Under the pieces are notes generated by a model. It ran no database searches and was not told where the DNA came from. It was given only the letters and a program-made list of their open reading frames with translations. This document shows, piece after piece, positions 3,864 to 30,981 of a DNA stretch of 64,000 bases. Position 1 is the first letter of the stretch, and the number at the start of each line of letters is the position of its first letter. Source of the stretch: Micromonospora coriariae. GTDB lineage: Bacteria > Actinomycetota > Actinomycetes > Mycobacteriales > Micromonosporaceae. The stretch lies in NCBI RefSeq assembly GCF_900091455.1, contig NZ_LT607412.1, positions 5,766,001 through 5,830,000 on the forward strand, given 5' to 3'. A program made the position numbers and the translations under genes.

Positions 3864-3939
3864 GCGTGGTGCCGGTCTGGTGGCGGAGGGTGTGGCGTCC
3901 AGTGTGGGCTCCGGGGTGTGGCGACACGACGTACCGCTG

Positions 3940-3967
3940 TTGACAACGAACGAGGTTAGGCTAACCT
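3940..3967 (+). promoter_or_regulatory. Probable promoter of the binding-protein/des operon
   Basis: TTGACA at 3940-3945 and TAACCT at 3962-3967 with a 16-base spacer. The -10 element lies inside the iron box, so a bound iron repressor would block RNA polymerase. Inferred from sequence only. Confidence 0.5.
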
Positions 3968-3969
3968 AA
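3951..3969. promoter_or_regulatory. Iron box (IdeR/DmdR1-type operator)
   Basis: The 19 bases match the actinobacterial iron-box consensus TTAGGTTAGGCTAACCTAA at 17 of 19 positions; only the first two differ (CG for TT). It lies between divergent transport and binding-protein/biosynthesis operons, the place expected for an operator that represses both under iron sufficiency. Confidence 0.9.
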
Positions 3970-4018
3970 CCCCGCTGTCCTGGTCGACCCGGCCGTCCCC
4001 TGATCGAAAGACAACACC

Positions 4019-5050
4019 ATGCCCGATGCCCTGTCCGCCCGTCGCCTCTCCCGTCGCGGTCTGCTGGCCGCCGGTGGCGCCGCCACGCTGGCCACCCTGC
4101 TCGCCGGCTGCGGCAAGGACGACGCCGCGAAGCCCGCCGCCAGCAACGGAAACGGCCCCTGGTCGTTCACCGACGACCGCAACCAGAAGGTCGAGGCGGC
4201 CGCTCGTCCGACCCGCGTGGTGGCCTTCACGGGGGTCGCGGCGGCGCTGATCGATTTCGGTCTCGACAAGCAGGTCGTTGGCGTGTTCGGCGAGACCAAG
4301 CGCGCCGACGGCACGGCCGAACCGCAGGCCGGCGACCTGAACATCGAGACCGTGGAGATCCTCGGCAACGTGTGGGGCGAGTTCAGCCTGGAGAAGTACG
4401 CGGCGCTGCGCCCCGAACTGCTGGTCACGCACATGTACGACCCGGACGCCCTCTGGTACGTGCCGGACGAGAGCAAGGCCAAGATCCTGCCGCTCGCGCC
4501 GAGCGTGGCGATCACCACCGCCCGGGTGCCGATGACCAAGCCCATCGAGCGGTACGCCGCGCTGGCCGAGTCGCTCGGCGCGGACCTGTCCGCGAAGAAG
4601 GTCACCGACGCGAAGGCCCGCTTCGAGGCCGGTGCCGAGGCGGTCCGCCAGGCCGTCAAGGCCAACCCGGGGATCAAGGTCATGGCCTGCTCCGGCAGCC
4701 CCGACCTGTTCTACGTCTCCAACCCCAAGGTGAGCACCGACCTGATGTACTTCGCCGAGCTGGGAGTGGACATCGTGGTCCCCACCAAGCTCGAAGCCGG
4801 CGACTACTTCGAGGCGCTGAGCTGGGAGAACGCCGGCAAGTTCCCGGCCGACCTGATCCTGCTGGACAACCGCAGCACCGCCTTGCAGCCCAAGGACCTC
4901 ACCGCCAAGCCCACCTGGCAGCAGCTGCCGGCGGTCAAGGCCAACCAGGTGACCCCGTGGGACACTGTGCCCCGCTTCTCGTACGCCGGCTCCGCGCCGC
5001 TGCTGGAGAACCTCGCCACCGCCATCCGGAACGCGAAGAAGATCAGCTGA
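4019..5050 (+). CDS. desE: Iron-siderophore-binding lipoprotein (DesE-like)
   Basis: 343 residues. The N-terminus has a twin-arginine stretch (RLSRRGLLAAGG) and a lipobox LLAGC, so it is exported, possibly by Tat, and lipid-anchored. The rest is a periplasmic-binding-protein fold of the FepB/FhuD class: RPTRVVAFTGVAAALIDFGLDKQ at the start of lobe one and the FSYAGSAPLLENLA end of lobe two. It should capture ferrioxamine and deliver it to the divergent FecCD transporter. It is the first gene of the plus-strand operon, directly after the iron box, matching desE of the streptomycete cluster. The name is by context and could equally belong to a related hydroxamate-binding protein. Confidence 0.85.
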   Translation: MPDALSARRLSRRGLLAAGGAATLATLLAGCGKDDAAKPAASNGNGPWSFTDDRNQKVEAAARPTRVVAFTGVAAALIDFGLDKQVVGVFGETKRADGTAEPQAGDLNIETVEILGNVWGEFSLEKYAALRPELLVTHMYDPDALWYVPDESKAKILPLAPSVAITTARVPMTKPIERYAALAESLGADLSAKKVTDAKARFEAGAEAVRQAVKANPGIKVMACSGSPDLFYVSNPKVSTDLMYFAELGVDIVVPTKLEAGDYFEALSWENAGKFPADLILLDNRSTALQPKDLTAKPTWQQLPAVKANQVTPWDTVPRFSYAGSAPLLENLATAIRNAKKIS

Positions 5051-5093
5051 CGCCGTGACCGCCTGACCGGCGACCCATTCGAAGGCAGCACCG

Positions 5094-5119
5094 CCCCCGG
5101 CGCTCGAGCGCGCCGGGGG
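5094..5119 (+). terminator. Hairpin between binding-protein gene and desA
   Basis: A perfect 10-base stem (CCCCCGGCGC / GCGCCGGGGG) with a 6-base loop, with no T-run after it. It could lower read-through from desE into desA, or stabilise the upstream message end. Confidence 0.5.
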
Positions 5120-5160
5120 AGGGTTCCGGCTGCCCATCGTCGAGAACGTGGAGGACATCC

Positions 5161-6711
5161 GTGACCCTGCCGACGTACCCCGTCGAGACCACCGCGCCGC
5201 CGTCGGCGCCGGCCACCGTGCCGGCCGTCGCGCGGGCACAGCTGCTGCACGGCGACTCGGTCGAGCAGTACCGGCGGACACTCGCCGACGGCGTCGACCG
5301 GATCGCCCGCCGGGTGGCCACCGTGGACCGGCCCGGCACCGGGATCAGCCCCGCCGAACTGGCTCCCGTGGTCGACCGCGTCGACCTGGACCGGCCACTG
5401 GGCGACGCGGGCGCCGCGCTGGACGAACTGGAGGACGTCTACCTGCGCGACGCCGTCTGGTTCCACCACCCCCGCTACCTTGCCCACCTCAACTGCCCGG
5501 TGGCCATCCCGGCGCTGCTCGGCGAGGCGATGCTCACCGCCGTGAACTCCTCCCTGGACACCTGGGACCAGAGCGCCGGGGCCACCCTCATCGAACGGCG
5601 TCTGATCGACTGGACCGCCGCGCGGGTCGGCCTCGGCCCCACCGCCGACGGTGTCTTCACCAGCGGGGGAAGCCAGTCCAACCTCCACGCGCTGCTGCTG
5701 GCCCGGGAGGAGGCGTGCGCCGCCGCGACCACCCCGGCGGCCCGCGCCGACCTGCTGCCCCGGCTGCGTGTCCTCACCTCCGCCGCCGGTCACTTCAGCG
5801 TGCAGAAGTCCGCCAAGCTGCTCGGCCTGGCCCCGGACGCGGTGATCGCGGTGCCCACCGACCCGCAGCGGCGGATCCGCCCGGCCGCCGTCCGCGCCGA
5901 GATCGCCCGGTGCCGGCAGGACGGGCTGGTGGTCATGGCGGTCGTCGGCACCGCCGGCACCACCGACTTCGGCTCCATCGACCCGATCGCCGACCTGGCC
6001 GACGTCTGCGCGGCAGCCGGCGTGTGGCTGCACGTCGACGCCGCGTACGGCTGCGGTCTGCTGGTCTCGCGGACCCGGCGGCACCTGCTCGACGGCATCG
6101 AGCGGGCCGACTCGGTGACCGTCGACTACCACAAGTCGTTCTTCCAGCCGGTCAGCTCCAGCGCGCTGCTGGTGCGCGACCGGCGGGTGCTGCGGCACGC
6201 CACCTACCACGCCGACTACCTCAACCCGGCGCGGATGGTGGAGCAGCGGATCCCCAACCAGGTCGACAAGAGCCTGCAGACCACCCGTCGCTTCGACGCG
6301 CTGAAGCTCTGGCTGACCCTGCGGGTGATGGGCCCGGACGCGCTCGGCGCGCTCTTCGACGAGGTGGTCGACCGGGCCGCCGACGCCTGGGAGCTGGTCA
6401 GCGAGGATCCCCGCTTCGAGGTCGTGGCCCGCTCCGAGCTGAGCACGGTGGTCTTCCGCTACCTGCCCATCGGCCCGGGCCGGGAGCTGGCCGACGCGGC
6501 CAACCTGCACGCCCGGGAGGCGCTGGCCGCCACCGGCGCCGCGGTCGTCGCCGGAACCCGGGTGGACGGGCGGCACTTCCTGAAGTTCACCCTGCTGAAC
6601 CCGGCCACCACTCTCGACGACGTCGGCCACGTGCTCGAACTGATCGCCACCCACGCCGGCCGGTACGTGCACGACCGTACCGCCGCCGACCTGACCTGCC
6701 ACGTCGGCTGA
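5161..6711 (+). CDS. desA: PLP-dependent L-lysine decarboxylase DesA
   Basis: 516 residues of the group II amino acid decarboxylase family. HVDAAYG carries the PLP-contacting Asp, and [16 protein letters not shown] carries the Schiff-base Lys325. It should make cadaverine from lysine, the first step of desferrioxamine synthesis. GTG start at 5161 (GTGACCCTGCCG) follows a GTGGAGG-like ribosome site. The stop TGA overlaps an ATG of the next frame, and desB, desC and desD follow without gaps. Assignment as lysine rather than diaminobutyrate decarboxylase rests on the neighbours. Confidence 0.93.
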
Positions 6712-14375: not shown

Positions 14376-15395
14376 TCAGTCCGTGCCGAGCGCGGCGAGT
14401 TCCGCATCGAGCAGGGCCGCCAGCTGGGCATGTCGGCCCGGATGGCTGCGCGCGGTCATGCCCCGGCTCGGCATCTCCACCGTCATCAGCAGGTACAGGT
14501 GCAACCGGTAGAGACCGAGTCGGCGGCGGGCCGCGGCGTCCAGCACCAAGGGCTCGGGGGCCGCGGCACGGTAGCCGCGCAGCAGCGGATGTTCCGGCTC
14601 GTCCTCCACCCGCCGGTAGAGCAGCGGCGAGACCAGATCCAGCAGCGGATCGCCGTGCAGGAACCGTTCGCCGTCCACCAGTCCGCTCAGCCGTAGCCGG
14701 CCGTCCGGGCCGGGCGCGGTCAGCACGTTGCCGTCCCAGCAGTCGAAATGCAGCAGCGCGGGGCGACGCACCTCGTCCAGCGCGCCGGCGTGCCGCCCGA
14801 CCAGCGTGCGCAACCGGTCCGGGGTGACCGGCAGCCGGACGTCCCAGTCGGCGGCGTCGGCGAGGAGCGCGTCGAGCATCGCCGTGAACGCCGCCGACCA
14901 GGTCGCCCCGCTGGCCCGCTCGCCCTCGTAGCCGAACCGGTCGCCCGTGACCCGGTGCACAGCGGCGAGGGCAGCGCCGAGGTCGTACCGCGCCGGGCCG
15001 TCGTCGATTGTCGCCCCGGCCTCGGCCAACTCGTACAGTGACCGGCCGGGCAGCATTCCGGTGACCAGCCACTCGCCGTACGCCGGGTCGGTGCCGTGGT
15101 GCAGCACCGGAGGCACGGGCACCTCCGGGGCCTGCTCGGCGACCAGCCGGAAGTACCGGGCCTCGGCCGCGCAGAGCCCGCGCTCGTAGCGCAGCAGCGG
15201 CGTACCTGCCGGCGGGGCCAGCTTCAACACCACCCGGCGGTCGTCGGCGAGCAGGATCCACCAGACCGTGGCGTAGCCGCCGCCGGTCAGCGGGCCGCAG
15301 TCACGTACCCGTGTGTGCGGGCCGAACGACGCGCGGACCAGGTACGTCACGTCGTCAGTCGTGAGCGGACGCTGTGTCGGGCTCGCCACGGTCAC
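14376..15395 (-). CDS. Aminoglycoside-phosphotransferase-family kinase
   Basis: 339 residues. GGYATVWWILLADDRRVVLKLAP holds the ATP-binding strand and Lys; HFDCWDGNVL is the catalytic loop with Asp and Asn; GLVDGERFLHGDPLLDL takes the place of the usual D-x-D metal site (IDWE type). Such kinases phosphorylate small hydroxylated molecules, not only antibiotics. The ATG overlaps the stop of the LacI gene by four bases, so kinase and repressor are co-translated. That coupling suggests it phosphorylates the sugar or nucleoside handled by the 16-24 kb operon; this is inference, and drug resistance is not implied. Confidence 0.82.
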   Translation of the reverse strand: MTVASPTQRPLTTDDVTYLVRASFGPHTRVRDCGPLTGGGYATVWWILLADDRRVVLKLAPPAGTPLLRYERGLCAAEARYFRLVAEQAPEVPVPPVLHHGTDPAYGEWLVTGMLPGRSLYELAEAGATIDDGPARYDLGAALAAVHRVTGDRFGYEGERASGATWSAAFTAMLDALLADAADWDVRLPVTPDRLRTLVGRHAGALDEVRRPALLHFDCWDGNVLTAPGPDGRLRLSGLVDGERFLHGDPLLDLVSPLLYRRVEDEPEHPLLRGYRAAAPEPLVLDAAARRRLGLYRLHLYLLMTVEMPSRGMTARSHPGRHAQLAALLDAELAALGTD

Positions 15396-16465
15396 GAGCG
15401 GACGTCACCCTGACGCGGGCGGGGCGCCGCCCCGGCTTTGTCCCGTGCGGATCGCGGGGCGGGGCCGGCGGTGTCCCGGCGGATCAGCTCGGCGGGGAGC
15501 ACCTCGACCCGCGGCGCCGGCGCCTCCGCGCCGAGCACCAGGGACATCGCGCGGACCCCCATGTCGACCAGCGGCAGCCGCACGGTGGTCAACGCCGGAG
15601 TCACGTCCCGGGCGATCGGCATGTCGTCGAAGCCCACCACGGAGACCCGCTGCGGCACGGCCAGCGAGCGCGACCGCAGGGTGGCGAGCGCGCCGATCGC
15701 CATCGAGTCGTTGAGCGCCACGATCGCGGTCAGCTCCGGGTCGGCGTCGAGCAGCCGGGCCGTGGCCTCGGCGCCGCCGTCGCGGTCGAACTCGGCGTAC
15801 CGGATCCGCCGCTCGGGCAGGTCGCGGCCCTGCTCGGTCAGGGCCTGCCGGAGCCCGGCGAGCCGGTCCGTGGTGGTGGTGAGGATGCGCGGGCCGGCCA
15901 CCACGCCGATCGCCCGGTGGCCCAGCTCGCACAGCTCCCGCCCGGCGAGGTAGCCGCCGGCCCGGTTGTCCGGCATCACCGCGTCGCCGGAGTGCTCGTG
16001 TCGGCCGATCACCGCGACCCGGCCGCCGGTCGCCTCGTACGCGGCGAGCTTCTCGTTGAGCTGCCGGGTGAACGCGTCGTCGTGGTAGCCGGAACCGGCC
16101 AGGATCAGTGCCGCCACCTGGTGGCCGCGCAGCAGCTCCACGTACTCCAACTCGCGGTCCGGGTCCCGGTAGCTGTTGCAGATCATCAGCAGCCGGCCCT
16201 TGTCGGTGGCGACGCGTTGCAGCCCACGGGTGATCTCGGCGAAATACGGGTCGGAGACGTCGTGCACGATCACGCCCACCGCGCTGCGGTGCGAGCGGGC
16301 CAGCAGCTGGGCGTGCGCGTTCGGCACGTACTGCAACTCGGCGACGGCGGCGAGCACCCGCTCGCGCAGCTCGTCGGTGACGGGCTTACTGCTGCCGTTG
16401 ATCACTCGGGAGGCGGTGGCGGGCGAGACGCCCGCGCGTCGCGCCACGTCGGACAGGGTCGCCAT
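15392..16465 (-). CDS. LacI-family transcriptional repressor
   Basis: 357 residues. N-terminal helix-turn-helix LSDVARRAGVSPATASRVING with the hinge helix PNAHAQLLARS (Leu in place), then a periplasmic-binding-like effector domain with VGVIVHDVSDPYFAEI and VGFDDMPIARDVTPALTTV. It is divergent from the cupin gene and the catabolic operon; sequences fitting the LacI-family consensus GGNAANCGNTTNCC lie in front of those genes at 16528-16541 and 17385-17398. It should repress them until an inducing sugar-like ligand binds. Confidence 0.92.
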   Translation of the reverse strand: MATLSDVARRAGVSPATASRVINGSSKPVTDELRERVLAAVAELQYVPNAHAQLLARSHRSAVGVIVHDVSDPYFAEITRGLQRVATDKGRLLMICNSYRDPDRELEYVELLRGHQVAALILAGSGYHDDAFTRQLNEKLAAYEATGGRVAVIGRHEHSGDAVMPDNRAGGYLAGRELCELGHRAIGVVAGPRILTTTTDRLAGLRQALTEQGRDLPERRIRYAEFDRDGGAEATARLLDADPELTAIVALNDSMAIGALATLRSRSLAVPQRVSVVGFDDMPIARDVTPALTTVRLPLVDMGVRAMSLVLGAEAPAPRVEVLPAELIRRDTAGPAPRSARDKAGAAPRPRQGDVRS

Positions 16466-16487
16466 GGCCCGCCCCCTCGGTCTGTTG

Positions 16488-16502
16488 ACGGCGTTTCGCC
16501 GT
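16488..16502. promoter_or_regulatory. Perfect inverted repeat upstream of lacI-like gene
   Basis: ACGGCG-TTT-CGCCGT, a perfect 6-3-6 palindrome 23 bases before the repressor start. Probably an operator for autoregulation or a small hairpin in the leader. Confidence 0.45.
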
Positions 16503-16527
16503 GCCGGCTAGCGTCACGGTACCGCAG

Positions 16528-16541
16528 AGAAAGCCCTTTCC
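16528..16541. promoter_or_regulatory. Candidate LacI-type operator of the cupin gene
   Basis: AGAAAGCCCTTTCC agrees with GGNAANCGNTTNCC at 8 of 10 fixed positions. It lies 16 bases before the cupin start, in the divergent spacer with the repressor gene. Confidence 0.55.
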
Positions 16542-16557
16542 CGCAGGGAGGCCGGCC

Positions 16558-17277
16558 GTGTCCGAACGCTTCGCCGCCCCGCTGCCCGGCGGGATCGGGG
16601 TGTCCCGACTGCGCGTCTACGACACCGTGGCCTCGGACGGCCTGGTCGGCGGCACCCCGCACGTGCACCTGTGCTGCACCGAGGGGTACGTGGTGACCGA
16701 CGGCGAGGGCGTGGTGCAGACCCTGACCACCGCCGGCTTCCGGGAGACGCCGCTGCGGCCGGGTGCTGTGGTCTGGTTCGAGCCGGGCACCGTGCACCGC
16801 CTGGTCAACGGCGGCGGGCTGACCATTGTGGTGCTCATGCAGAACAGCGGCCTGCCCGAGGCCGGCGACGCGGTGCTGACCTTCCCACCCGAGGTGCTGG
16901 CCGACCCGGCCGCGTACGCCGCGGCGGCGGCGTTGCCCGACGGGGGAGCGCCGGGCGCGGACGTGCACGCCGCGTACCGCCGGCGGGATCTGGCGGTGAC
17001 CGGCTTTCAGGCGCTGCGCTCCGGCGGGCCGATGGCGCTGGCCGCGTTCCACGCCGCCGCGATCGCGCTGCGCCAGCCGTTGGTGACACGGTGGCGGCAG
17101 CGGTGGGAGGACGGCGCGGGCCGTGCCGCCGCCGACACCGCCGCGCAGCTCGACGCCCTCAAGCGGGGGGATCCCGGGCACCTGGGTGACGCCGGGGTGT
17201 ACGCGGTGGACGAGCCGGTCGAGCGCGGCCGGTTGGGTATGTGCGGCCTCCTCGACACCTACCCGGCCAGCAGCTGA
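16558..17277 (+). CDS. Cupin-domain protein
   Basis: 239 residues from the GTG at 16558, preceded by GCAGGGAGG. A single cupin barrel occupies roughly residues 15-105: HVHLCCTEGYVV supplies the HxH(x)nE half-site and PGTVHRLVNG the second His, so a metal site is likely. The C-terminal half is predicted helical and resembles no domain I recognise. It is divergent from the LacI repressor and is the first gene of the induced region. Role could be an isomerase, dioxygenase or sugar-binding sensor; I cannot decide. Confidence 0.75.
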   Translation: MSERFAAPLPGGIGVSRLRVYDTVASDGLVGGTPHVHLCCTEGYVVTDGEGVVQTLTTAGFRETPLRPGAVVWFEPGTVHRLVNGGGLTIVVLMQNSGLPEAGDAVLTFPPEVLADPAAYAAAAALPDGGAPGADVHAAYRRRDLAVTGFQALRSGGPMALAAFHAAAIALRQPLVTRWRQRWEDGAGRAAADTAAQLDALKRGDPGHLGDAGVYAVDEPVERGRLGMCGLLDTYPASS

Positions 17278-17343
17278 ACATCCGGTATGGACTGTCGCGC
17301 GGCTGCGGTTGAGCCGGTCGCAGGGGCGGAAGAAACAGATCGA

Positions 17344-17398
17344 GGAAAGGCCTTGCCCGGGGTGAGGGTGCCGCCTACGCTCCAGGAAAGCGTTTGCC
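17344..17398. promoter_or_regulatory. LacI-type operator pair before the ABC importer
   Basis: GGAAAGCGTTTGCC at 17385-17398 matches GGNAANCGNTTNCC at all ten fixed positions. A second, weaker site GGAAAGGCCTTGCC lies at 17344-17357, its centre 41 bases upstream (about four helical turns), suited to cooperative binding. Confidence 0.75.
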
Positions 17399-17455
17399 TG
17401 ATACGCCGACCGGCCCGGTGCGCGGGTGTCGTGCCGGGTCCCGAGGAGGTTCCGC

Positions 17456-18412
17456 GTGACCGAGAACGCTCTGGACACGGCGGGCCAGCAGGCCGCCGCC
17501 GCGAGGGCGGCCGGTGCACCCGCCGCATCGGCGGCGACCGGGTCGACCGACGCCGGTCAGCCGTCCGCAGTGGTCGGACCGCCACCGGGGACCGGCGGCC
17601 GACCGTCACGACCGACGCTCGGCCGCCGTGCGCTGGCCCTCGCCGACTCGCTCTGGCGCCCGGCGCTGGTGCTGGCGGCGTTCTTCGCCGCCTGGTGGTT
17701 CGTCGCCGCCCGGGAGTACGTGCCCAACTATCTGGTGCCGACCCCCGGCCAGGTCTGGACCACGATGACCGAGCAGTGGTCGGAGCTGGTTCGGCACACC
17801 ATGGTCACCCTCTACGAGACGGTGCTCGGCTTCGTACTGGCCGCCGCGCTGGGGCTGGCCGCCGCGGTCGCCATCGCATACTCGCGCACCCTGGACAAGG
17901 CGCTCTACCCGATCGTCCTGTTCGCACAGGTCATTCCAAAGATCGCCATCGCACCACTGCTTGTGGTCTGGTTCGGCCTCGGCCTCACCCCGAAGATCAT
18001 CCTGGCGGTCCTCATCGCGTTCTTCCCGGTGGTCATCTCCGGCGTGGCAGGGCTGCGCTCCACCGACCCGGAGCTGCTCGACCTCGCCGCCACGATGGGC
18101 GCCGGGCCCTGGCGCACCTTCCGCAAGATCCGCTTTCCGAACGCGTTGCCACATCTGATGGCCGGCCTCAAGGTGGCGGTCACTCTCGCGGTGGTCGGCG
18201 CCGTGGTCGGTGAGTTCGTCGGCGCCAGCGAAGGGCTCGGCTACGTCCTGTTGCTGGCCAACGGCAACCTCGACGCCCCGCTCCTGTTCGCCGATCTGAT
18301 CCTGATGTCCGCCATCGGCATCGTCCTGTTCGTCCTGGTCGAGATCGCCGAGGCACTGCTCATTCCCTGGCACGCCAGCCGTCGGGCCGGCGTACCGCTC
18401 ACCACCTCCTGA
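17456..18412 (+). CDS. ABC transporter permease (SsuC/ThiX/nitrate-sulfonate-taurine type)
   Basis: 318 residues from a GTG with GAGGAGG before it. An unusual 60-residue Ala/Gly/Pro-rich N-terminal extension precedes six hydrophobic segments. VPNYLVPTPGQVWTTM and the EAA loop DPELLDLAATMGAGPWRTFRKIRFPNALPHLMAGLKVAV are typical of the BPD_transp_1 group that pairs with NMT1/THI5-like binding proteins. It forms the importer with the next two genes. Pyrimidine, thiamine-precursor, sulfonate and nitrate substrates are all known in this group. Confidence 0.88.
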   Translation: MTENALDTAGQQAAAARAAGAPAASAATGSTDAGQPSAVVGPPPGTGGRPSRPTLGRRALALADSLWRPALVLAAFFAAWWFVAAREYVPNYLVPTPGQVWTTMTEQWSELVRHTMVTLYETVLGFVLAAALGLAAAVAIAYSRTLDKALYPIVLFAQVIPKIAIAPLLVVWFGLGLTPKIILAVLIAFFPVVISGVAGLRSTDPELLDLAATMGAGPWRTFRKIRFPNALPHLMAGLKVAVTLAVVGAVVGEFVGASEGLGYVLLLANGNLDAPLLFADLILMSAIGIVLFVLVEIAEALLIPWHASRRAGVPLTTS

Positions 18413-18435
18413 CCGACCCCATCACGGAGGCACCG

Positions 18436-19443
18436 ATGAAACGCACCGCCACCACCATCCTGGCCACCGTCGCCCTGCTGTTCGCCGCCACCGGCTGCGG
18501 CGGGGACGACTCCTCCGACGGCGGCACCGGCGCCGACGGCAAGAAAGAGGTCACCCTCACCCTCAACTGGGTGCCCTACGGCGAGCACGCCCCGTTCTAC
18601 TACGGGCTCCAGAAGGGCTTCTTCTCCGCCGAGGGCATCGACCTGAAGATCCTGCCCGGCAACGGCTCCGGCAACACCGTCAAGCAGGTCGCCCAGAAGC
18701 AGACCGACTTCGGCTGGGCGGACAGCCCGGTGCTGCTCAAGTCGGTGGCCAGCGGGATGCCGGTGCGCAGCCTGGGCGCGTACCTGGAGAAGGGCCCGTC
18801 CTCGGTGGAGTTCTTCACGGAGGAGAACATCAAGACCCCGGCCGACCTCAAGGGCAAGACCGTCGGCGGCACCCCCGGCGACGCCCTCTACGCGACCTTC
18901 CCGGCCTGGCTGGAGAAGAACGGCCTCAAGAAGGACGACGTCAAGGTCGTCAACGTGGACGCCGCCGGCAAGATCGCTGCACTGGCCGAGGGCAGGGTCG
19001 ACGCCATCATGGGCTTCTTCCACGACCAGGCACCCACCATCGAGAGCAAGACCGGCAAGAAGGTCGACGTGCTGCTCTTCGCCGACTACGGCATGAACCT
19101 GCTCGGCACCGGCCTGATCGCCAACACCCAGACCCTCCAGAAGGACCCGGAGCTGGCCCGCAAGTTCGTCCGGGCCACCCAGAAGTCCTGGGCCGAGGCC
19201 GCCCGCGACCCGGCCGGCGCGGTGAGCGCGATGACCGCCCTCGCCGAGAACGAGCCCGCACCCGAGGTGCTCACCAAGCAGCTCACCCTCAACCTGCCGC
19301 TGATCGGCGCCGACGGCCCGCCCGGCGTGAACACCGAAGCCCAGTGGACCGAGACCATCGACCTGATGTCCCGCTACGCGGAGCTGAAGGACCCGGGCGC
19401 ACCCAACGCGTACTGGGACGCCTCGTACGCGGCCCAGGGGTGA
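18436..19443 (+). CDS. NMT1/THI5-like substrate-binding lipoprotein
   Basis: 335 residues. Signal peptide with lipobox FAATGCG, then TLTLNWVPYGEHAPFYYGLQKGFFSAEGIDLKI, the opening strand of the NMT1/THI5/ThiY class, and VNVDAAGKIAALAEGRVDAIMGFF in the second lobe. This class binds formylaminopyrimidine, riboflavin, nucleobase-like and related ligands rather than ordinary sugars, which is notable beside sugar-type enzymes. Located between its permease and ATPase genes with spacings of 23 and 4 bases. Start ATG follows ACGGAGGCACCG. Confidence 0.88.
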   Translation: MKRTATTILATVALLFAATGCGGDDSSDGGTGADGKKEVTLTLNWVPYGEHAPFYYGLQKGFFSAEGIDLKILPGNGSGNTVKQVAQKQTDFGWADSPVLLKSVASGMPVRSLGAYLEKGPSSVEFFTEENIKTPADLKGKTVGGTPGDALYATFPAWLEKNGLKKDDVKVVNVDAAGKIAALAEGRVDAIMGFFHDQAPTIESKTGKKVDVLLFADYGMNLLGTGLIANTQTLQKDPELARKFVRATQKSWAEAARDPAGAVSAMTALAENEPAPEVLTKQLTLNLPLIGADGPPGVNTEAQWTETIDLMSRYAELKDPGAPNAYWDASYAAQG

Positions 19444-19447
19444 CCCG

Positions 19448-20242
19448 GTGACCGCCGCGCCGGCCCAGGCCGGCACCGCCATCGGCATGTCCGGTCTGAC
19501 CGTCCGGTTCAGCTCGCGGCGGTCGCAGACCACCGCGCTGGACGACGTGTCGCTGGACATCCAGCCGGGGGAGTTCGTCACCATCGTCGGTCCGTCCGGC
19601 TGCGGCAAGTCCACCCTGCTGAAGATCATCGCCGGGCTGGTCCGGCCGACCAGCGGCACGGTGTCGCTGCTGGACCGCCCGGTACGCGGCCCGCAGAAGG
19701 AGATCGGCTTCGTCTTCCAGAAGGCCGCACTGCTGGAGTGGCGCGGGGCGCGGGGCAACATCCTGCTCCAGGCCGAGATGCGCGGCATGGACCGGGCGCA
19801 CGCGGCCCGCCGGGCGGACGAGCTGATCGAGATGACCGGCCTGACCGGCTTCGAGAAGGCGCTGCCGCACGAGCTCTCCGGCGGCATGCAGCAGCGGGTG
19901 GCGCTCTGCCGCGCGCTGCTGCACTCCCCGCCGGTGCTCCTGATGGACGAGCCGTTCGGTGCCCTGGACGCGCTGACCCGCGAGCAGATGAACGCCGAGC
20001 TGCACCGGATCTGGCGGGAGACCGGCACCACTGTGGTGCTGGTGACCCACTCCATCGCCGAGGCGGTCTTCCTCGGCACCCGGGTCGTGGTGATGAGCGC
20101 CCGGCCCGGCCGGATCATCCGCACCTTCCCGGTCGAGCTGCCGGCGCACCGGGACTACGCACAGGTGATGTCGGATCCCCGCTTCGACCGGCTCGCCACC
20201 GACCTGCGCGGGTTGCTCGGCAGCGCGGCCGCCAACCACTGA
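19448..20242 (+). CDS. ABC transporter ATPase of the NMT1-type importer
   Basis: 264 residues. Walker A GPSGCGKST, Q-loop FVFQKAALLEWRGARGNI, signature LSGGMQQRVALCRAL, Walker B VLLMDEPFGALD and H-loop LVTHSIAEAVFLGTRVVVMSARPG. The last phrase is characteristic of the SsuB/TauB/ThiZ branch. GTG start four bases after the binding-protein stop. It completes a three-part importer with the two preceding genes. Confidence 0.92.
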   Translation: MTAAPAQAGTAIGMSGLTVRFSSRRSQTTALDDVSLDIQPGEFVTIVGPSGCGKSTLLKIIAGLVRPTSGTVSLLDRPVRGPQKEIGFVFQKAALLEWRGARGNILLQAEMRGMDRAHAARRADELIEMTGLTGFEKALPHELSGGMQQRVALCRALLHSPPVLLMDEPFGALDALTREQMNAELHRIWRETGTTVVLVTHSIAEAVFLGTRVVVMSARPGRIIRTFPVELPAHRDYAQVMSDPRFDRLATDLRGLLGSAAANH

Positions 20243-20280
20243 GCCCGCATCGGCACGACCAGCACGACGGAAGGAACATC

Positions 20281-21432
20281 ATGACCCGCAGGTCGATCGG
20301 CATCATCGTCAACGGAGTGACCGGAAGGATGGGCTACCGGCAGCACCTCGTCCGCTCGCTGCTGGCCATCCGCGAGTCCGGCGGCGTGACGTTGGCCGAC
20401 GGCACGACCATCTGGCCGGAACCGGTCCTGGTCGGGCGCAACGAGACGAAGCTCCGCGAGCTCGCCGAGCGGCACGGGCTGCCCGACTGGACCACCGACC
20501 TGACCTCGGCGCTGGCCCGGAACGACGTCGAGATCTACTTCGACGCCCAGGTCACCCAGCAGCGGGAGAAGGCGATCCGGCAGGCCATCGAGGCCGGCAA
20601 GCACATCTACACGGAGAAGCCCCTCGCTGAGGACACCGCGGGCGCGCTCGACCTGGCCCGCGCCGCCGACGCTGCCGGGGTACGCACCGGTGTCGTGCAG
20701 GACAAGCTCTTCCTGCCCGGGCTGCGCAAGCTCAAGCGGCTCATCGATGGCGGCTTCTTCGGCCGGATCCTGTCGGTGCGCGGCGAGTTCGGCTACTGGG
20801 TCTTCGAGGGCGACTGGCAGCCGGCCCAGCGCCCGTCCTGGAACTACCGGGCCGAGGACGGCGGCGGCATCACTGTCGACATGTTCCCGCACTGGCACTA
20901 CGTGCTGGAGGAGCTGTTCGGCCGGGTCAACGCCGTCTCCTGCGTGACCGCCACCCACGTGCCCGAGCGGGTCGACGAGGACGGCCGCACCTACCCCGCC
21001 ACCGCCGACGACGCCGCGTACGGCATCTTCGAGCTCGACGGTGGGGTGATCGCGCAGCTCAACTCGTCCTGGTGCGTGCGGGTGTACCGCGACGAGTTGG
21101 TGGAGTTCCAGGTCGACGGCACCGAGGGCAGCGCGGTGGCCGGGCTGCGCCGCTGCCGGGTGCAGCACCGGGCGGTCACCCCGAAGCCGGTGTGGAACCC
21201 GGACCTGCCGGTCACCGAGGACTTCCGGGCGCAGTGGACCGAGGTGCCCGACAACGAGGAGTTCGACAACGGCTTCAAGGTGCAGTGGGAGGCGTTCCTG
21301 CGGCACGTCGTGGCCGGTGAGCCGTTCCGCTGGGACTTCCTGGCCGGCGCACGCGGCGTGCAGCTCGCCGAGTTGGGGCTGCGCTCGGCCCGCGAGGGCG
21401 TCCGGGTCGAGGTGCCGGAGCTGACCTCATGA
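20281..21432 (+). CDS. Gfo/Idh/MocA-family dehydrogenase
   Basis: 383 residues. N-terminal Rossmann motif NGVTGRMGYRQHL, the conserved EKPLAEDTAGALDLA near residue 115 and the active-site region GGGITVDMFPHWHYVLEELFG near residue 200. These enzymes oxidise or reduce a hydroxyl of a sugar or cyclitol with NAD(P). ACGGAAGGAAC precedes the ATG. Its stop overlaps the next gene by four bases. In known pathways such an enzyme often makes a 3-keto-sugar that is then acted on by a TIM-barrel isomerase/lyase; both partners follow here. Confidence 0.88.
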   Translation: MTRRSIGIIVNGVTGRMGYRQHLVRSLLAIRESGGVTLADGTTIWPEPVLVGRNETKLRELAERHGLPDWTTDLTSALARNDVEIYFDAQVTQQREKAIRQAIEAGKHIYTEKPLAEDTAGALDLARAADAAGVRTGVVQDKLFLPGLRKLKRLIDGGFFGRILSVRGEFGYWVFEGDWQPAQRPSWNYRAEDGGGITVDMFPHWHYVLEELFGRVNAVSCVTATHVPERVDEDGRTYPATADDAAYGIFELDGGVIAQLNSSWCVRVYRDELVEFQVDGTEGSAVAGLRRCRVQHRAVTPKPVWNPDLPVTEDFRAQWTEVPDNEEFDNGFKVQWEAFLRHVVAGEPFRWDFLAGARGVQLAELGLRSAREGVRVEVPELTS

Positions 21433-22580
21433 CGCCCGAGGTGGTGCTGCCCGGGGGGCGGCGGCACCGGCTGGCCGGAGGGAGCGGGTTCCCCCGCCCC
21501 GCCGCCCCGGCGGCCAGCCGGATCGCGTACGCCGCCGCGCACGTCGTGGCCGACCCGAGCGCGGAGAACGTGCCGGGCGCCCCGGCGGCGGTGGACTGGG
21601 AGACCACCCTCGCGTTCCGCCGGCACCTCTGGTCGTACGGCCTGGGGGTCGCCGAGGCGATGGACACCGCCCAGCGGGGGATGGGGCTGGACTACCCGGC
21701 CACCCGTGAGTTGATCCGGCGTAGCGCCGCCGAGGCCCGCGCTGTGGGCGGGCGGATCGTCGCCGGGGTCGGCACCGATCAGCTGCCGGCCGGCCCGGCC
21801 ACCCTGACGTCGGTCACCGCGGCCTACCGGGAGCAGCTCGACGACGTCCGCGCCGCCGGGGCCCGGCCGGTGCTGATGTGCAGCCGGCACCTGGCCGCCG
21901 TGGCCCGCGGCCCGGAGGACTACCTGCGGGTGTACGACGATCTGCTGACCGTCGCGCAGGAGCCGGTGGTGCTGCACTGGCTGGGCCCGATGTTCGACCC
22001 GGCGCTGACCGGCTACTGGGGTGCGCTGGACCTGGACCTGGCCACCGACACGGTGGTCGAGCTGATCAAGGCGCACGAGTCCAAGGTGGACGGGATCAAG
22101 GTGTCGCTGCTGGACGCCGGGCGGGAGGTCGCGCTGCGCCGCCGGCTGCCGGCCGGGGTACGGCTCTACACCGGCGACGACTTCCACTACCCGGAGTTGA
22201 TCCGGGGTGACGAGATGGGTCACTCGGACGCGCTGCTCGGGGTGTTCGCGGCCATCGCGCCGGCCGCCGCCGCCGCGCTGGCCGCCCTGGACCGGGGCGA
22301 CCTGGCAGCGTACGACGAGATCCTCGCGCCGACGGTGCCACTGGCCCGGCACCTGTTCGCGGCGCCGACCTGGCACTACAAGACGGGGATCGTGTTCCTG
22401 GCCTGGCTGTCCGGGCATCAGGACCACTTCACCATGGTCGGCGGCGCGCAGTCCGGCCGGTCGCCGGCCCACCTGGCCACCCTGCTCACCCTGGCCGACG
22501 CCGCCGGGCTGCTGCCCGACGCCGACCTGGCCGCCGCCCGCGCCCGGGCGTTGTTCACAGTGGCAGGGGTAGCGCAATGA
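21429..22580 (+). CDS. DUF993-family protein (dihydrodipicolinate-synthase-like TIM barrel)
   Basis: 383 residues. I recognise the DUF993 layout: RIAYAAAHVVADP near the N-terminus, DWETTLAFRRHLWSYGLGVAEAMDTAQRGMGLD, VLHWLGPMFDPALTGYWG in the middle, KVDGIKVSLLD with a Lys placed where DHDPS-fold aldolases carry the Schiff base, and GDDFHYPELI. An aldolase or dehydratase activity is plausible but undemonstrated for the family as far as I know. ATGA overlap on both sides shows tight coupling to the dehydrogenase and the isomerase. Confidence 0.82.
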   Translation: MTPEVVLPGGRRHRLAGGSGFPRPAAPAASRIAYAAAHVVADPSAENVPGAPAAVDWETTLAFRRHLWSYGLGVAEAMDTAQRGMGLDYPATRELIRRSAAEARAVGGRIVAGVGTDQLPAGPATLTSVTAAYREQLDDVRAAGARPVLMCSRHLAAVARGPEDYLRVYDDLLTVAQEPVVLHWLGPMFDPALTGYWGALDLDLATDTVVELIKAHESKVDGIKVSLLDAGREVALRRRLPAGVRLYTGDDFHYPELIRGDEMGHSDALLGVFAAIAPAAAAALAALDRGDLAAYDEILAPTVPLARHLFAAPTWHYKTGIVFLAWLSGHQDHFTMVGGAQSGRSPAHLATLLTLADAAGLLPDADLAAARARALFTVAGVAQ

Positions 22581-23383
22581 GTGGGTTGGCGCGTTTCTCG
22601 TTCAACCAGGCCACCGCCCAGCACTGGCCGTTGCCTGAGGTGGTGGCCGGTTGCGTCGCGGCCGGCGTGCCCGGCATCGGGCTGTGGCGGGAGCCGGTCG
22701 CCGAGTACGGGCTGGCCCGCTCGGCGAAGCTGGTCCGCGACGCCGGCCTCGCCGTCACCTCGCTGTGCCGGGGCGGGTTCTTCCAGGCCGACGACTGGCG
22801 GGCGGACAACCTGCGGGCCATCGAGGAGGCGGCCACGCTGGGCGCCCCCGAGCTGGTGCTGGTCTCCGGGGGGCTGCCGGGGGGCAGCCGGGACATCGAC
22901 GGCGCCCGGCGCCGGGTCGCCGACGCGATCGGCGAGCTGGCCCCACACGCGGCGGCGGCCGGCGTACGGCTGGCCATCGAGCCGCTGCACCCGATGTTCT
23001 GCGCCGACCGCTGCGTGATCGCCACCCTCGGCCAGGCGTTGGACATCGCCGAGCGCTTCGACACGGCGGTGGTGGGTGTGGTCGTGGACGCGTACCACGT
23101 CTGGTGGGACGACACCGTGTACGCGCAGATCGACCGGGCCGGCCCGTGGATCGCCGCGTTCCAGGTCTGCGACTGGGTGACTCCGCTGCCGGAGGGGGTG
23201 CTGCTCGGTCGGGCCCTGCCGGGCGACGGCTGCATCGAGCTGCGCCGGCTGCGCGAGGCGGTGGACGCGGCCGGTTATGTGGGCCCGATCGAGGTGGAGG
23301 TCTTCTCCGCCGAGGTGTGGGCGCGTCCGGGTGCGGAGGTGCTCGACGCCGCGATCGCCGGCTACCTGCGCCACGTTGTCTGA
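22577..23383 (+). CDS. Sugar phosphate isomerase/epimerase-like TIM-barrel protein
   Basis: 268 residues of the xylose-isomerase-like (AP endonuclease 2) fold. Metal-binding candidates are seen in order: Glu in AIEPLHPM, Asp/His in VVDAYHVWWDD, and Glu in GPIEVEVFSAEVW. These match the IolE/hydroxypyruvate-isomerase family pattern. It follows DUF993 with a four-base overlap and probably acts on the keto product of the Gfo/Idh dehydrogenase as isomerase, epimerase or lyase. Confidence 0.85.
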   Translation: MSGLARFSFNQATAQHWPLPEVVAGCVAAGVPGIGLWREPVAEYGLARSAKLVRDAGLAVTSLCRGGFFQADDWRADNLRAIEEAATLGAPELVLVSGGLPGGSRDIDGARRRVADAIGELAPHAAAAGVRLAIEPLHPMFCADRCVIATLGQALDIAERFDTAVVGVVVDAYHVWWDDTVYAQIDRAGPWIAAFQVCDWVTPLPEGVLLGRALPGDGCIELRRLREAVDAAGYVGPIEVEVFSAEVWARPGAEVLDAAIAGYLRHVV

Positions 23384-24539
23384 CATTCCCGAACGGCGCT
23401 GGCCGGCTGCGGTCGGCGCCTGGCTGGGTATCGGCACCGCGCCGGCAACGCTGGTGCTCGGCGCGGCGATGGCCGCCCGGCACGGCGGCGCGGTGCCGGT
23501 GGCCGGGCTGCTGGTCGGCGGGGCGCTGATGGCGGCGCTGCTCTGGGGGCAGGGCCGGATCGGGCTGCGCCGGCCGCTCGGCGACGGCGGTACGTTGACC
23601 GCTGTGCTGCCCGCGTATCTGGGGAACACCTCGCGGATGCTGCTGGCGGCGGTGCTGGCCTTGTCGATGGTCGGCTGGAACGGGTTCAACGTCGGGCTCG
23701 GCGGTGCCTCCCTGGCGGCGCTGACACACCTGCCCGGCTGGGTAGGGCCGGCGTTGCTGGAGGTCGCGGTCCTCGTCGTCTCCTGGGCGCCGGCCCGGTT
23801 CGGCAACCGGGTCGCGGTGCTCACCACGCTCAGCGCGGTGGTGCTGGTCGGCTGGTGCCTGACGGTGCTGCCGCCGCCGGGCGCGCCGGTCCGCCTCGCC
23901 GCCGGTGGGCTCGCCGACGCCGCCGCGCTGATCGGGTACGCGGCCGTGTTCGCGCTGCGCGCGCCGGACTTCAGCGTGGGCCTCGCCCGGCGGCGGGACC
24001 TGGCCTGGTGCGTGGGGCTGCTGATCGGGCCGGCGCTGCTCGGGGTGCTCGCCGGTGCCGGCCTGTGGCTGCGGACCGGCTCGGCCGACGTGGTCGCGTT
24101 GCTCGCCGCCGGCTCGGGGCTGGCCGCGTACGCGAACCTGTTCGTCGCGGTGGCGGTCTTCGCCGCGGCGCTGACCACCACGTACTCCGGTTCCCTGGCG
24201 TTGCGTGGCCTGGCTCCCCGCCTGCCGGCGCGGGCGGCGATGCTGCTCGTCGCGGTGCTCGGCGGGGTGCTGGCGGTGGCGCGGTTCGACCGTCTGGTGC
24301 TGCCCTGGCTGACCCTGCTGGCCGCCGCGTTGCCGGTGCTTGTGGTGCCGATGGCCGTGGAGGCCACGGCCCGTCGGCGCGGTCGTGTCCCGCGTACCGT
24401 GCCGGCCTGGTGCTGGGTGCCGCCGGCGCTGCTCGCGGTGGCCTGCACGCTCGCCGGGGTGGGCGTCGCCCCGCTGCTCGGGCTGGCCCTGGCCGGGGCG
24501 TGCACAGTGCTCTGGCGGCGTCGAGGAGTCGCGACCTAG
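23376..24539 (+). CDS. NCS1-family (CodB-like) permease
   Basis: About 387 residues with roughly 11 membrane segments. GAWLGIGTAPATLVLGAAMAARHGG near the N-terminus and MVGWNGFNVGLGGASLA match cytosine/purine/hydroxymethylpyrimidine permeases of the NCS1 family. No ATG or GTG sits at a sensible place; a TTG at 23376, inside the end of the preceding gene, gives LSDIPERRWPAAVGAWLG and is chosen as start with coupling to that gene. The N-terminus is therefore uncertain. A second importer for a nitrogen heterocycle in the same operon supports a nucleobase- or nucleoside-like substrate. Confidence 0.75.
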   Translation: MSDIPERRWPAAVGAWLGIGTAPATLVLGAAMAARHGGAVPVAGLLVGGALMAALLWGQGRIGLRRPLGDGGTLTAVLPAYLGNTSRMLLAAVLALSMVGWNGFNVGLGGASLAALTHLPGWVGPALLEVAVLVVSWAPARFGNRVAVLTTLSAVVLVGWCLTVLPPPGAPVRLAAGGLADAAALIGYAAVFALRAPDFSVGLARRRDLAWCVGLLIGPALLGVLAGAGLWLRTGSADVVALLAAGSGLAAYANLFVAVAVFAAALTTTYSGSLALRGLAPRLPARAAMLLVAVLGGVLAVARFDRLVLPWLTLLAAALPVLVVPMAVEATARRRGRVPRTVPAWCWVPPALLAVACTLAGVGVAPLLGLALAGACTVLWRRRGVAT

Positions 24540-24792: not shown

Positions 24793-27700
24793 GTGGCTAC
24801 AGGCACGAGCGGAAACAGGCTGCGAAGACTAGCGATACCGTCGCTTGTCGTCGCCCTGGTCACCGGCGTCACCGGCGTTGCGGGATCAGCGTCGGCCGCC
24901 CCTGCGGGATCACCGGGTAACGGCGGCAGTGCCGCCGGTTACTTCACCGCCGGGTCCGACAAGAAGGTCACCCTGACCGACGGGGCCGACCGCCGACCCG
25001 GCGGTAACCGCGCGGCCACCCCGAAGGCGGCCGTCGACGAGACGGGCTCCGGCATGTACGTCGTCGAACTGGTCGAGGACCCGTTGACCACGTACACCGG
25101 TGGGGTGTCCGGCCTGGCACGGACCCGCCCCGCGGCCGGCAACCGGCTGGACGTGACGTCGGCACCGTCGCAGGCGTACCGCCGGCACCTCGACACGCAG
25201 CGGGCCGCCGTCGCCGCCGCGGCCGGCGTCAAGGCCAACGCCGTCTACACCACAGCCTTCAACGGGTTCTCGGCGAAGCTGACCGCCCAGCAGGTGAGCA
25301 CGTTGCGCGCGGACAAGCGCGTCCGCGCCGTCACCGCCTCGCGGGCCCTCGGCACTCCCTCGGCGCCGCCCCTCCCGACCACGGCGACCGCCGCCAACCC
25401 GACGCCCGCCACCCCCAGTGGCGCGGACCAGTCGGCGCCGACGGACCTCGCCGGCCGGCCGGCCAAGCCCGGCCCCGGCACGGGCGCGGGTATGGTGATC
25501 GGCGTCCTGGACACCGGCATCTGGCCGGAGAGCGCGTCGTTCGCCAAGAAGATGCCCGCCCCCGCCACCTGGCACGGCACCTGCCAGACCGGGGTTGCCT
25601 TCGTGGCCGAGCACTGCAACGGCAAGATCGTCGGTGCCCGCTACTTCGCCGACACCTGGCTCGCCGGCGGCGGCTCGGTGCCCGAGGGTGAGCTGCTCTC
25701 TCCCCGCGACATGGCCGGGCACGGTACGCACACCGCGTCCACGGCGGCCGGTCTGCCGATCCCGAACGTCACCATCGACGGTCGGCGTTTCGGTCCCGTC
25801 TCCGGGGTGGCGCCGGACGCCCAGATCGCCGTCTACAAGGTGCTCTGGAACGGCATGGGCTTCGACGCCGACATCATCGCCGGCATCGACGCGGCCGTCG
25901 CTGACGGCGTGCAGGTGCTGAACTTCTCGATCGGCTCCGATCTCGGCGATTGGGAGGCCAACACCCCTATCGGCGTGGCGTTCCTCAACGCCTCGCTGGC
26001 CGGGGTCTTCGTGGCGGCGTCGGCCGGCAACACCGGCATCGTGAGCGGCGCTATCAGCAACGCGGCACCCTGGGTGACAACGGTCGGCGCGGCGGTGACC
26101 AGGCTCGACGAGGCCACCGCCAAGCTGGGCGACGGCACGAAGCTGGTCGGCGGCTCGCTGGACGCCCTGCCCGGCGGTGGCGCACGGCCGCTGGTCTTCG
26201 GTGAGGAGGCCGGATCGCCGGACCTGGGTGCGGTCTACTGCGAACCGGGCAGCCTCGACCCGGACAAGATCAAGGGCAAGGTGGTCGCCTGCGCGCTGTC
26301 CGACATGTTCGGCTCGGCCGCCGAGATCAAGGCCAAGGGCGGGGCGGCGATGATGGTGTTCGACCCGGTCGGCAACTACCGGATCAACTCCATCTTCAAC
26401 TTCCCGGTGGTCTACCTGCCGACCGAGAAGCAGGCCGGCACGCTGTTCAACTACCTGATGCGCCACCCCAACGACGCGACAGTGACGTTGCGCACCGGCG
26501 GTGACGGCTCCAGCGTCCCCGGCGTACCCAGCGTCGCGGACTTCTCCTCCACCGGCCCGGACAAGGTCACCCTCGGCGTCCTGAAACCAGACCTGGTCGC
26601 GCCGGGATCGGACATCATCGCCGCGGTCTCACCGGCGGGCAACTTCGGGCGGCAGTACGACGCGTACTCGGGCACCTCGATGGCCTCGCCGTACGTGGCC
26701 GGCGCGGCGGCGATCCTGCGGGCCACGCACCCGGACTGGTCACCTGGCGCGGTCGCGTCGGCGCTGCGTACCACCGCCACCGACACCGTCGGCACCAGCA
26801 GCCCTCTCGACCAGGGCAGCGGATTCATCAACCTGGCCGGGGCCACCGACCCCGGACTGGTCATCGAGCCCACCGCGGCGGACCTGGTCGCCTTCAGCGA
26901 GACGGCCGTGCCGGACGGCAAGGAACTCAACCTGCCGGCCATCTCGTTGCGCGAGTACGACGGGACCCGTCCGGTGACACTCACCCGCACCCTGACCAAT
27001 GTGGGCAAGGCGCGGGAAACCTACCGCTCTTCGGTATCCGGGCTGGACGGCATGAAGGTCACCGTGACGCCGGCCTCGGTGACGCTGGCACCCGGCAAGT
27101 CCGCGACGGTCACCATCACGTTGGGTCGGGGCAGCGCGCCCTGGGACCGGTACGTGACCGGGTCGATCACCTGGCGCGGCAAGGCGCACAGCGCCCGGAT
27201 CCCGGTCGCCGCCCGTCCGTGGGGCATCACGCCCCGACCGTACGGTGACGACGGGGAGGAATTCGGCCGGATGACCAACGGCGCGTTCGGCTCGATCCAG
27301 CCTGGCTTCACCGGACCACTCGCCGGTCGCAGCACCGGTTACACGCCGATGCAGCGGAAGTCGTACTCGATGCCAGCTGGCGTCTACGGCGGCGTGTTCG
27401 ACCCGAGCGCCACCGGAGTGAAGAAGGTCGACTTCACCGTGCCGGCGAACACCGCCGGCATCATCGTCGAGGCCAACACCGACGACCCGAACACGAACCT
27501 CGACCTCTACCTGTACAAGGGCGACACCCTCATCTACAGCAGTGACAGGTTCTGGACCAGCGCGGAGCAGGCGTACAAGTTCCTGCCCGAGCCGGGGCGC
27601 TACACCGCGTACGTGTTCGCGCAGTTCCCCGGTGGTCCGGTCGTCGACTTCCAGTTCGGTCATGCCATCGTCGGCCGAAACGCGAAGTATCCGGGCGCCA

Positions 27701-27867
27701 CGCTGACGCTTCCCTCCACGGCGCAGCGTGGTGCGACGCACGGGTTCACGCTGAAGCCGAACAAGCCGCTGGCCGAGGGTGACTTCTGGGCGTACACCGA
27801 GTACAGCACCAACGGCACTGTGGTCCCCGGCAACCTCGTCTACACCCAACAGAGTTCCTGGCAGTAA
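24793..27867 (+). CDS. Secreted subtilisin-like serine protease (S8) with PA and Fn3-like domains
   Basis: 1024 residues from a GTG with CGAGAGGAGCC before it. Signal peptide ends near AASSA-type ASAAPAG (residues 1-36). An I9-type propeptide (residues 90-185: YVVELVEDP to KRVRAVTAS) is followed by a Thr/Pro linker. The catalytic triad is Asp240 (VLDTGIWPES), His310 (GHGTHT) and Ser629 (SGTSMASP). A protease-associated insert (around 470-570) and an Fn3-like domain (RTLTNVGKARETY) lead to a C-terminal pre-peptidase-like domain (FTVPANTAGIIVEAN). The order resembles plant cucumisin-type subtilases. Expected to degrade protein outside the cell after propeptide removal. No neighbours in operon. 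Confidence 0.92.
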   Translation: MATGTSGNRLRRLAIPSLVVALVTGVTGVAGSASAAPAGSPGNGGSAAGYFTAGSDKKVTLTDGADRRPGGNRAATPKAAVDETGSGMYVVELVEDPLTTYTGGVSGLARTRPAAGNRLDVTSAPSQAYRRHLDTQRAAVAAAAGVKANAVYTTAFNGFSAKLTAQQVSTLRADKRVRAVTASRALGTPSAPPLPTTATAANPTPATPSGADQSAPTDLAGRPAKPGPGTGAGMVIGVLDTGIWPESASFAKKMPAPATWHGTCQTGVAFVAEHCNGKIVGARYFADTWLAGGGSVPEGELLSPRDMAGHGTHTASTAAGLPIPNVTIDGRRFGPVSGVAPDAQIAVYKVLWNGMGFDADIIAGIDAAVADGVQVLNFSIGSDLGDWEANTPIGVAFLNASLAGVFVAASAGNTGIVSGAISNAAPWVTTVGAAVTRLDEATAKLGDGTKLVGGSLDALPGGGARPLVFGEEAGSPDLGAVYCEPGSLDPDKIKGKVVACALSDMFGSAAEIKAKGGAAMMVFDPVGNYRINSIFNFPVVYLPTEKQAGTLFNYLMRHPNDATVTLRTGGDGSSVPGVPSVADFSSTGPDKVTLGVLKPDLVAPGSDIIAAVSPAGNFGRQYDAYSGTSMASPYVAGAAAILRATHPDWSPGAVASALRTTATDTVGTSSPLDQGSGFINLAGATDPGLVIEPTAADLVAFSETAVPDGKELNLPAISLREYDGTRPVTLTRTLTNVGKARETYRSSVSGLDGMKVTVTPASVTLAPGKSATVTITLGRGSAPWDRYVTGSITWRGKAHSARIPVAARPWGITPRPYGDDGEEFGRMTNGAFGSIQPGFTGPLAGRSTGYTPMQRKSYSMPAGVYGGVFDPSATGVKKVDFTVPANTAGIIVEANTDDPNTNLDLYLYKGDTLIYSSDRFWTSAEQAYKFLPEPGRYTAYVFAQFPGGPVVDFQFGHAIVGRNAKYPGATLTLPSTAQRGATHGFTLKPNKPLAEGDFWAYTEYSTNGTVVPGNLVYTQQSSWQ

Positions 27868-30967: not shown

Positions 30968-30981
30968 GGTAAGCGGTTTCC
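30968..30981. promoter_or_regulatory. LacI-type operator left beside the PKD remnant
   Basis: GGTAAGCGGTTTCC on the plus strand, GGAAACCGCTTACC on the minus strand, matches GGNAANCGNTTNCC at all ten fixed positions. It lies 14 bases from the truncated gene's first codon. Confidence 0.6.

Follow-up and report, generated by a model that had tools for sequence, protein, structure and literature searches.

A conserved DUF993 and IolI-like enzyme pair within a LacI-controlled catabolic block of Micromonospora coriariae

Dehydrogenases of the Gfo/Idh/MocA family employ catalytic Lys, Asp, and His residues. DgpA and its xylose-isomerase-like (XI-like) partner carry out oxidation followed by aglycone elimination. 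IolI-like isomerases of the AP_endonuc_2 family hold their metal through Glu, Asp, His, and Glu ligands. Dihydrodipicolinate synthase (DHDPS), from the same superfamily as N-acetylneuraminate lyase, forms a Schiff base at Lys161, and its GxxGE motif and Tyr133 serve in pyruvate-carboxylate binding and catalysis. Relatives of all these enzymes stand together in Micromonospora coriariae, in ten genes at positions 14376 to 24539 of a 64,000-nucleotide stretch of contig NZ_LT607412.1 (the window; the genome measures 6.93 Mb). These genes constitute one co-regulated catabolic block, which also encodes a protein of the DUF993 family.

Conservation was assessed in 200 genomes of the window's order, its own included, with the same genomes used in each search. 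DUF993 is encoded by 66 of them, and the XI-like protein (E≤1e-35) by the identical 66; the two genes are adjacent in every case (G012 has a DUF993 fragment only). DUF993 and the XI-like protein are a conserved unit. The Gfo/Idh dehydrogenase, counted with them as the enzyme core, lies within 2.6 kb in 49 of the 66 loci and within 8 kb in 56; a LacI-type repressor lies within 8 kb in 50. The first-pass annotation had named co-occurrence of the gene set in other genomes as a test of its view; such co-occurrence holds for the enzyme core and fails for the set as a whole: within 8 kb of the core, by score thresholds, are an NMT1-type ABC importer set at 21 loci, a CUT1 permease at 13, an NCS1-like permease at 4, a cupin at 8, a CoA-transferase at 3, RbsA at 1, and an APH-like kinase at 7, every one in the window's genus. 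The chance probabilities that were computed overstate independence, because the genomes are related.

The core extends beyond the order, into Proteobacteria and further phyla; at least 7996 DUF993 relatives were detected, the nearest named ones from Micromonospora. The best 80 loci in a scan of genome contigs come mostly from Streptomyces and Micromonosporaceae, along with Thermosporothrix (L110; Chloroflexota) and a Gemmatimonadetes metagenome-assembled genome (L116), which was dropped for want of a called DUF993 open reading frame. Gfo/Idh and XI-like genes each lie within 3.5 kb of DUF993 in 78 of the other 79, and LacI within 5 kb in 64. A further 147 plasmid records matched; 20 were hand-chosen for annotation, so counts on these do not describe a sample. 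Ten carry all three core genes (L031–L036, L118, L120, L122, L123), and in L130 DUF993 occurs with a core-type Gfo/Idh and a match to glycerate kinase, with no XI-like gene found. The Chelatococcus locus (L035) repeats the window order: an ABC set with an NMT1-type substrate-binding protein (228 bits), an enolase-like gene, Gfo/Idh, DUF993, and XI-like.

Each core enzyme has solved relatives: 4dnh (SMc04132) for DUF993; 3oqb for Gfo/Idh; and 3qc0, 3ju2 (SMc04130), and 7vpf for XI-like. The depositors' names for 4dnh, 3ju2, and 3oqb are 'uncharacterized' or generic. In S. meliloti (L034) the same three families occupy one stretch, which from its sequence is probably the SMc0413x locus; it differs from the window in carrying TetR and enolase-superfamily genes along with a CUT1 importer. 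Literature searches by locus tag and PDB code returned no function for these relatives, and no paper found names DUF993, in searches that covered few subscription papers and no supplements. A table passage of PMC12542648, where PhaR is discussed, lists SMc04132 and SMc04133 with negative values; the passages of PMC4052901 that were consulted name no such regulon. No described pathway with this gene set was found, in agreement with the first-pass annotation.

From the gene order, operator, conserved core, folds, and conserved catalytic residues computed here, we infer the steps of a possible route. The reading that we favor, quite possible and put forward tentatively, is a LacI-repressed operon for uptake and breakdown of a polyhydroxy compound, whether a sugar, a sugar acid, or a cyclitol and possibly in glycoside form, with carbon–carbon cleavage and an exit at glycerate. 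An inducer would lift LacI off the operator at 17385, and the substrate would enter through the ABC importer and, locally, also through the NCS1-like permease. Gfo/Idh with NAD(P) would oxidize a secondary alcohol to a ketone; the IolI-like metal enzyme would shift or epimerize the carbonyl; and DUF993, as a class I lyase, would form a Schiff base at K224 to effect carbon–carbon cleavage (retro-aldol) or dehydration. A three-carbon product would pass through glycerate to glycolysis. A related phosphorylation may fall to the APH-like kinase.

DUF993 adopts the (β/α)8 DHDPS fold. K224 aligns with residue 161 of 6p90, the DHDPS Schiff-base lysine, in a weak HMMER match (E 0.2), and is kept in 161 of 164 sequences; the exceptions are two gaps and one Ser. 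The weak alignment and the fold together make K224 the putative equivalent of that lysine. DUF993 is about 90 residues longer than DHDPS and N-acetylneuraminate lyase, and sequence comparison reaches DHDPS at E 0.2 only. A lyase of this kind would, if confirmed, widen the known range of the DHDPS fold.

The window's Gfo/Idh protein matches its family profiles, and the catalytic residues are nearly invariant: the Lys of EKP is kept in 146 of 147 sequences, and the Asp and His of GGGxxxDxxxH in 145 and 146. Profile matches include 6a3f (1e-29), which we take to be levoglucosan dehydrogenase, DgpA (7xr9, 1.5e-16), and inositol dehydrogenases. The first two bear on oxidative deglycosylation, in which Gfo/Idh would make a 3-keto-glycoside, the XI-like protein would eliminate the aglycone, and DUF993 would degrade the keto-sugar; the transporter would set the glycoside, here perhaps a heterocyclic one. 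The 3-keto-sugar idea, already raised in the first-pass annotation, is plausible. It fits the constancy of the core while transporters change, the kinship of the binding protein with a pyrimidine binder, and glycan-related genes near some loci (GH9 and GH6 in L095; DUF6807 in L048, L112, and L142). Levoglucosan dehydrogenase also supplies the best NCBIfam model, although the window protein falls far under its curated cut-off (64 versus 650 bits). However, the solved matches of the XI-like protein (E≤1e-8) are 3qc0, 3ju2, and 7vpf, then IolI, with no Dgp isomerase among them (the search did not extend to a DgpB-type partner), and many Streptomyces loci carry LacI and the three core enzymes, with no transporter recognized by the reference set. 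We regard deglycosylation as unlikely.

Outside its own group, the XI-like protein comes closest among solved structures to IolI (1i60; 6.2e-21), at low similarity (78 bits, versus 477 for 3ju2). Three metal-ligand positions of IolI (E142, D174, and a late Glu) are kept: E135, D171, and the late Glu are present in 160 to 161 of 163 sequences. This relationship, together with the inositol dehydrogenases matched by Gfo/Idh, invites comparison with inositol-like cyclitol catabolism, in which Gfo/Idh would correspond to IolG and XI-like to IolI or IolE, with a retro-aldol ring opening by DUF993 replacing the IolD route. The Gfo/Idh score nevertheless reaches only 50 bits against an IolG cut-off of 355, 7vpf of the XI-like group was deposited under the name xylose isomerase, and in several plasmid loci the core adjoins tripartite-tricarboxylate and TRAP transporters, which points to an acid. 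The cyclitol proposal seems doubtful as it stands. Both it and deglycosylation overlap with the favored polyhydroxy-compound route, and the Gfo/Idh and IolI/XI-like families uphold the earlier view that the block contains sugar-type enzymes.

The glycerate exit of the favored route draws on the neighbors of the core. Fifteen of the 66 loci have a glycerate kinase match within 8 kb, 8 strong (312–815 bits) and 7 weak (108–153 bits; for G126, Pfam recognizes part of the domain only). This frequency is above chance at an assumed density of 1.6 copies per 6 Mb, with independence also assumed. Besides the match in L130, glycerate kinase is annotated in seven of the 20 chosen plasmid loci (L031, L032, L033, L036, L121, L124, and L127). 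Among the 66 loci, the 15 with glycerate kinase and the seven with the APH-like kinase share no member; the two kinases could be functional substitutes, or the pattern could reflect lineage only. The glycerate kinase link, the core pair, and the operator offer direct handles toward the substrate.

Several observations weigh against the favored route. At the active site of DUF993, the GxxGE motif and the Tyr133 equivalent are missing: DTAQR stands in place of GTTGE, and SR-x (placed by eye) in place of PYY, so the chemistry could differ from that of DHDPS. An hhalign comparison between DUF993 and the DapA of the same genome gave no significant score and left the lysines unaligned. The His metal ligand of IolI (H200) is Gln in the window XI-like protein and in 133 of 163 sequences (His in 28), a split that follows lineage largely. 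Ten of the 66 loci have no Gfo/Idh within 8 kb. Glycerate kinase is missing from the window operon and from within 8 kb of the core in 51 of 66 loci, and the only one found in the window genome is far from the operon. In two Streptomyces plasmid loci (L128 and L129), DUF993 neighbors type I polyketide synthases together with a mycofactocin-coupled short-chain dehydrogenase/reductase (SDR), with no annotated partners, which suggests a biosynthetic use of the enzyme. Finally, seven of the 20 plasmid loci (L037, L119, L121, L124–L127) present a second layout, in which DUF993 and XI-like lack a core-type Gfo/Idh and are accompanied instead by SDR, CoA-transferase, acyl-CoA dehydrogenase, or electron-transfer flavoprotein genes; in L124 a different Gfo/Idh lies about 3 kb away. 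A plain aldolase route does not explain this layout.

One genome of the order, G108 (L140), holds genes of both layouts: the core, the NMT1-type ABC set, and LacI, together with CoA-transferase, enoyl-CoA-hydratase-like, and SDR genes. The Gfo/Idh and SDR/acyl-CoA layouts may therefore be part of one metabolism. A broader proposal, possible but tentative, is that DUF993 together with its IolI-like partner defines a carbon-breakdown route that is undescribed and crosses phyla. In this route a class I lyase of DHDPS fold, lacking the usual 2-keto-acid site, would cleave a keto-sugar or keto-cyclitol made by either Gfo/Idh or an SDR/acyl-CoA-type set, with interchangeable transporters and a glycerate exit. 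If this is true, a large family that has solved structures, as do its partners, but no explained function would gain a pathway.

Control by LacI, proposed in the first-pass annotation, is supported by a palindromic operator and by similar sites at most core loci. Within the window, GGAAAGCGYTTRCC is matched exactly once, by GGAAAGCGTTTGCC at 17385–17398, and once more with a single mismatch at 30968, where 0.04 matches with up to one mismatch are expected by chance. Genome-wide there are three exact matches, and none for the reversed control. In the window, no such site was seen in the interval between LacI and the cupin gene. A looser LacI-type pattern, counted where it falls outside recognized genes and no more than 400 nt from a LacI, core, or transporter gene, occurs at 60 of the 66 loci (166 matches, representing 109 distinct sites over 1.15 Mb); the reversed pattern occurs at none (one match overall), and two shuffled patterns gave no matches. 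This looser pattern is partly circular, because it was designed after palindromes had been seen in the same loci. In G174, operator-like sites lie near DUF993, LacI, the ABC permease, and Gfo/Idh.

Another of the three exact genomic matches adjoins unrelated-looking genes, and one (L203:4001-4014) lies between the gene for a pyridoxal-phosphate (PLP) decarboxylase and that for a secreted PL11 rhamnogalacturonan lyase, upstream of the latter. Exact GGAAAGCGCTTGCC precedes PL11 in only five genomes (30 PL11 loci), all of the window's genus (G000, G038, G175, G189, and G193), and a loose match in 9 of the 30. DUF993 is present in all 27 genomes whose PL11 exceeds the cut-off, a co-occurrence confounded by kinship; a different LacI could also own the PL11 site. 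The rhamnogalacturonan link stands as a weak lead.

The transporters, together with the sugar-type enzymes, formed the basis of the earlier proposal that the block imports and degrades a heterocyclic glycoside of nucleoside or C-nucleoside type. The importer matches the NMT1/THI5 type, with a PF09084 binding protein, permease, and ATPase. The nearest solved relatives of the binding protein are 4nmy and 3ix1, a formyl-aminopyrimidine binder, ahead of SsuA; THI5 is also among its relatives, so a heterocyclic substrate part is possible. Close homologs (E≤1e-50) occur in 23 of the 200 genomes, all 23 DUF993-positive and 21 of them beside DUF993; in G063 and G133 the importer and a cupin gene lie on a contig other than that of DUF993, and the G063 set also has the NCS1-like permease. 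The NMT1 importer belongs with the DUF993 module. In G133 a PLP decarboxylase (L136:5051-6934) follows this set, which is separate from the core.

The last permease is nearest in fold to CodB and Mhp1 (NCS1-type LeuT fold) at 14% identity, with no Pfam match at E≤10; the only PF02133 gene found in the genome lies elsewhere. It is encoded in 5 of the 200 genomes (E≤1e-20), beside the core in 4. It is NCS1-like by fold alone, and its presence is local. Hand-picked plasmid loci place the core beside tripartite-tricarboxylate, TRAP, MFS, CUT1, or other systems, and the acid-type carriers indicate a charged substrate at those loci. Transporters that change from locus to locus around an unchanging core say little about the chemistry. 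Nucleobase-type transport is not supported, in the form first put forward, as the key to the substrate. The catabolic block and its sugar-type enzymes stand; the nucleoside or heterocycle part is not needed. Import and breakdown of a nucleoside or C-nucleoside, despite the formyl-aminopyrimidine/THI5 and CodB/Mhp1 relationships, is highly improbable: 45 of 66 loci have no NMT1-type set nearby and 62 have no NCS1-like permease, no nucleoside-specific gene was recognized among the neighbors scanned (part of all neighbors), and no Rfam family, such as the thiamine pyrophosphate riboswitch, matches the window at gathering scores.

That Rfam result also led to rejection of thiamine salvage. Ribose was likewise rejected as substrate: RbsABC, RbsD, and PfkB genes stand beside many Streptomyces loci, yet were treated as mere neighbors because RbsA (≥150 bits) was seen once in the 66 loci of the window's order.

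The block has the ten genes that the first-pass annotation listed as one coupled unit (Table 1), and from the ABC permease through the last permease they are in contact, overlap, or are separated by at most 40 nt. Its boundaries change in places: the Gfo/Idh start moves to 20281 and that of the last permease to a TTG at 23376, and the cupin and ABC permease genes probably start later than first called.

Table 1. Genes and operator of the block, in window coordinates
Feature	Position	Strand	Remarks
APH/fructosamine-kinase-like kinase	14376..15395	-	4-nt overlap with LacI; PF01636 1e-19, PF03881 1.5e-5
LacI/GalR-type repressor	15392..16465	-	PF00356 2.7e-18; nearest NCBIfam models GalR/GalS/RbsR, all under cut-off
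Cupin protein	16501..17277	+	weak Cupin_2/Cupin_1; start probably GTG 16558, read by eye
LacI-type operator GGAAAGCGTTTGCC	17385..17398	+	precedes transporter/enzyme operon
ABC permease	17426..18412	+	PF00528 1.6e-34; start probably GTG 17456, read by eye
NMT1/THI5-type substrate-binding lipoprotein	18436..19443	+	PF09084 1e-53; lipoprotein signal judged by eye
ABC ATPase	19448..20242	+	PF00005; nearest NCBIfam models TauB/SaoA/NrtCD, under cut-off
Gfo/Idh/MocA dehydrogenase (core)	20281..21432	+	PF22725/PF02894/PF01408
DUF993, DHDPS-fold putative Schiff-base lyase (core)	21429..22580	+	
IolI/XI-like TIM-barrel protein (core)	22577..23383	+	PF01261 1.5e-37
Divergent NCS1-like (LeuT-fold) permease	23376..24539	+	TTG start

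The block is followed directly by a gene for a large subtilase (24793-27867; PF00082), which shares its strand. Farther away, positions 1798-6711 have the look of a siderophore region, with two membrane-permease-like open reading frames, a Peripla_BP_2 binding protein, and a PLP decarboxylase (the permease and siderophore calls were made by eye), and 42358-44022 encode a pyridine-nucleotide-disulphide oxidoreductase fused to a response-regulator domain.

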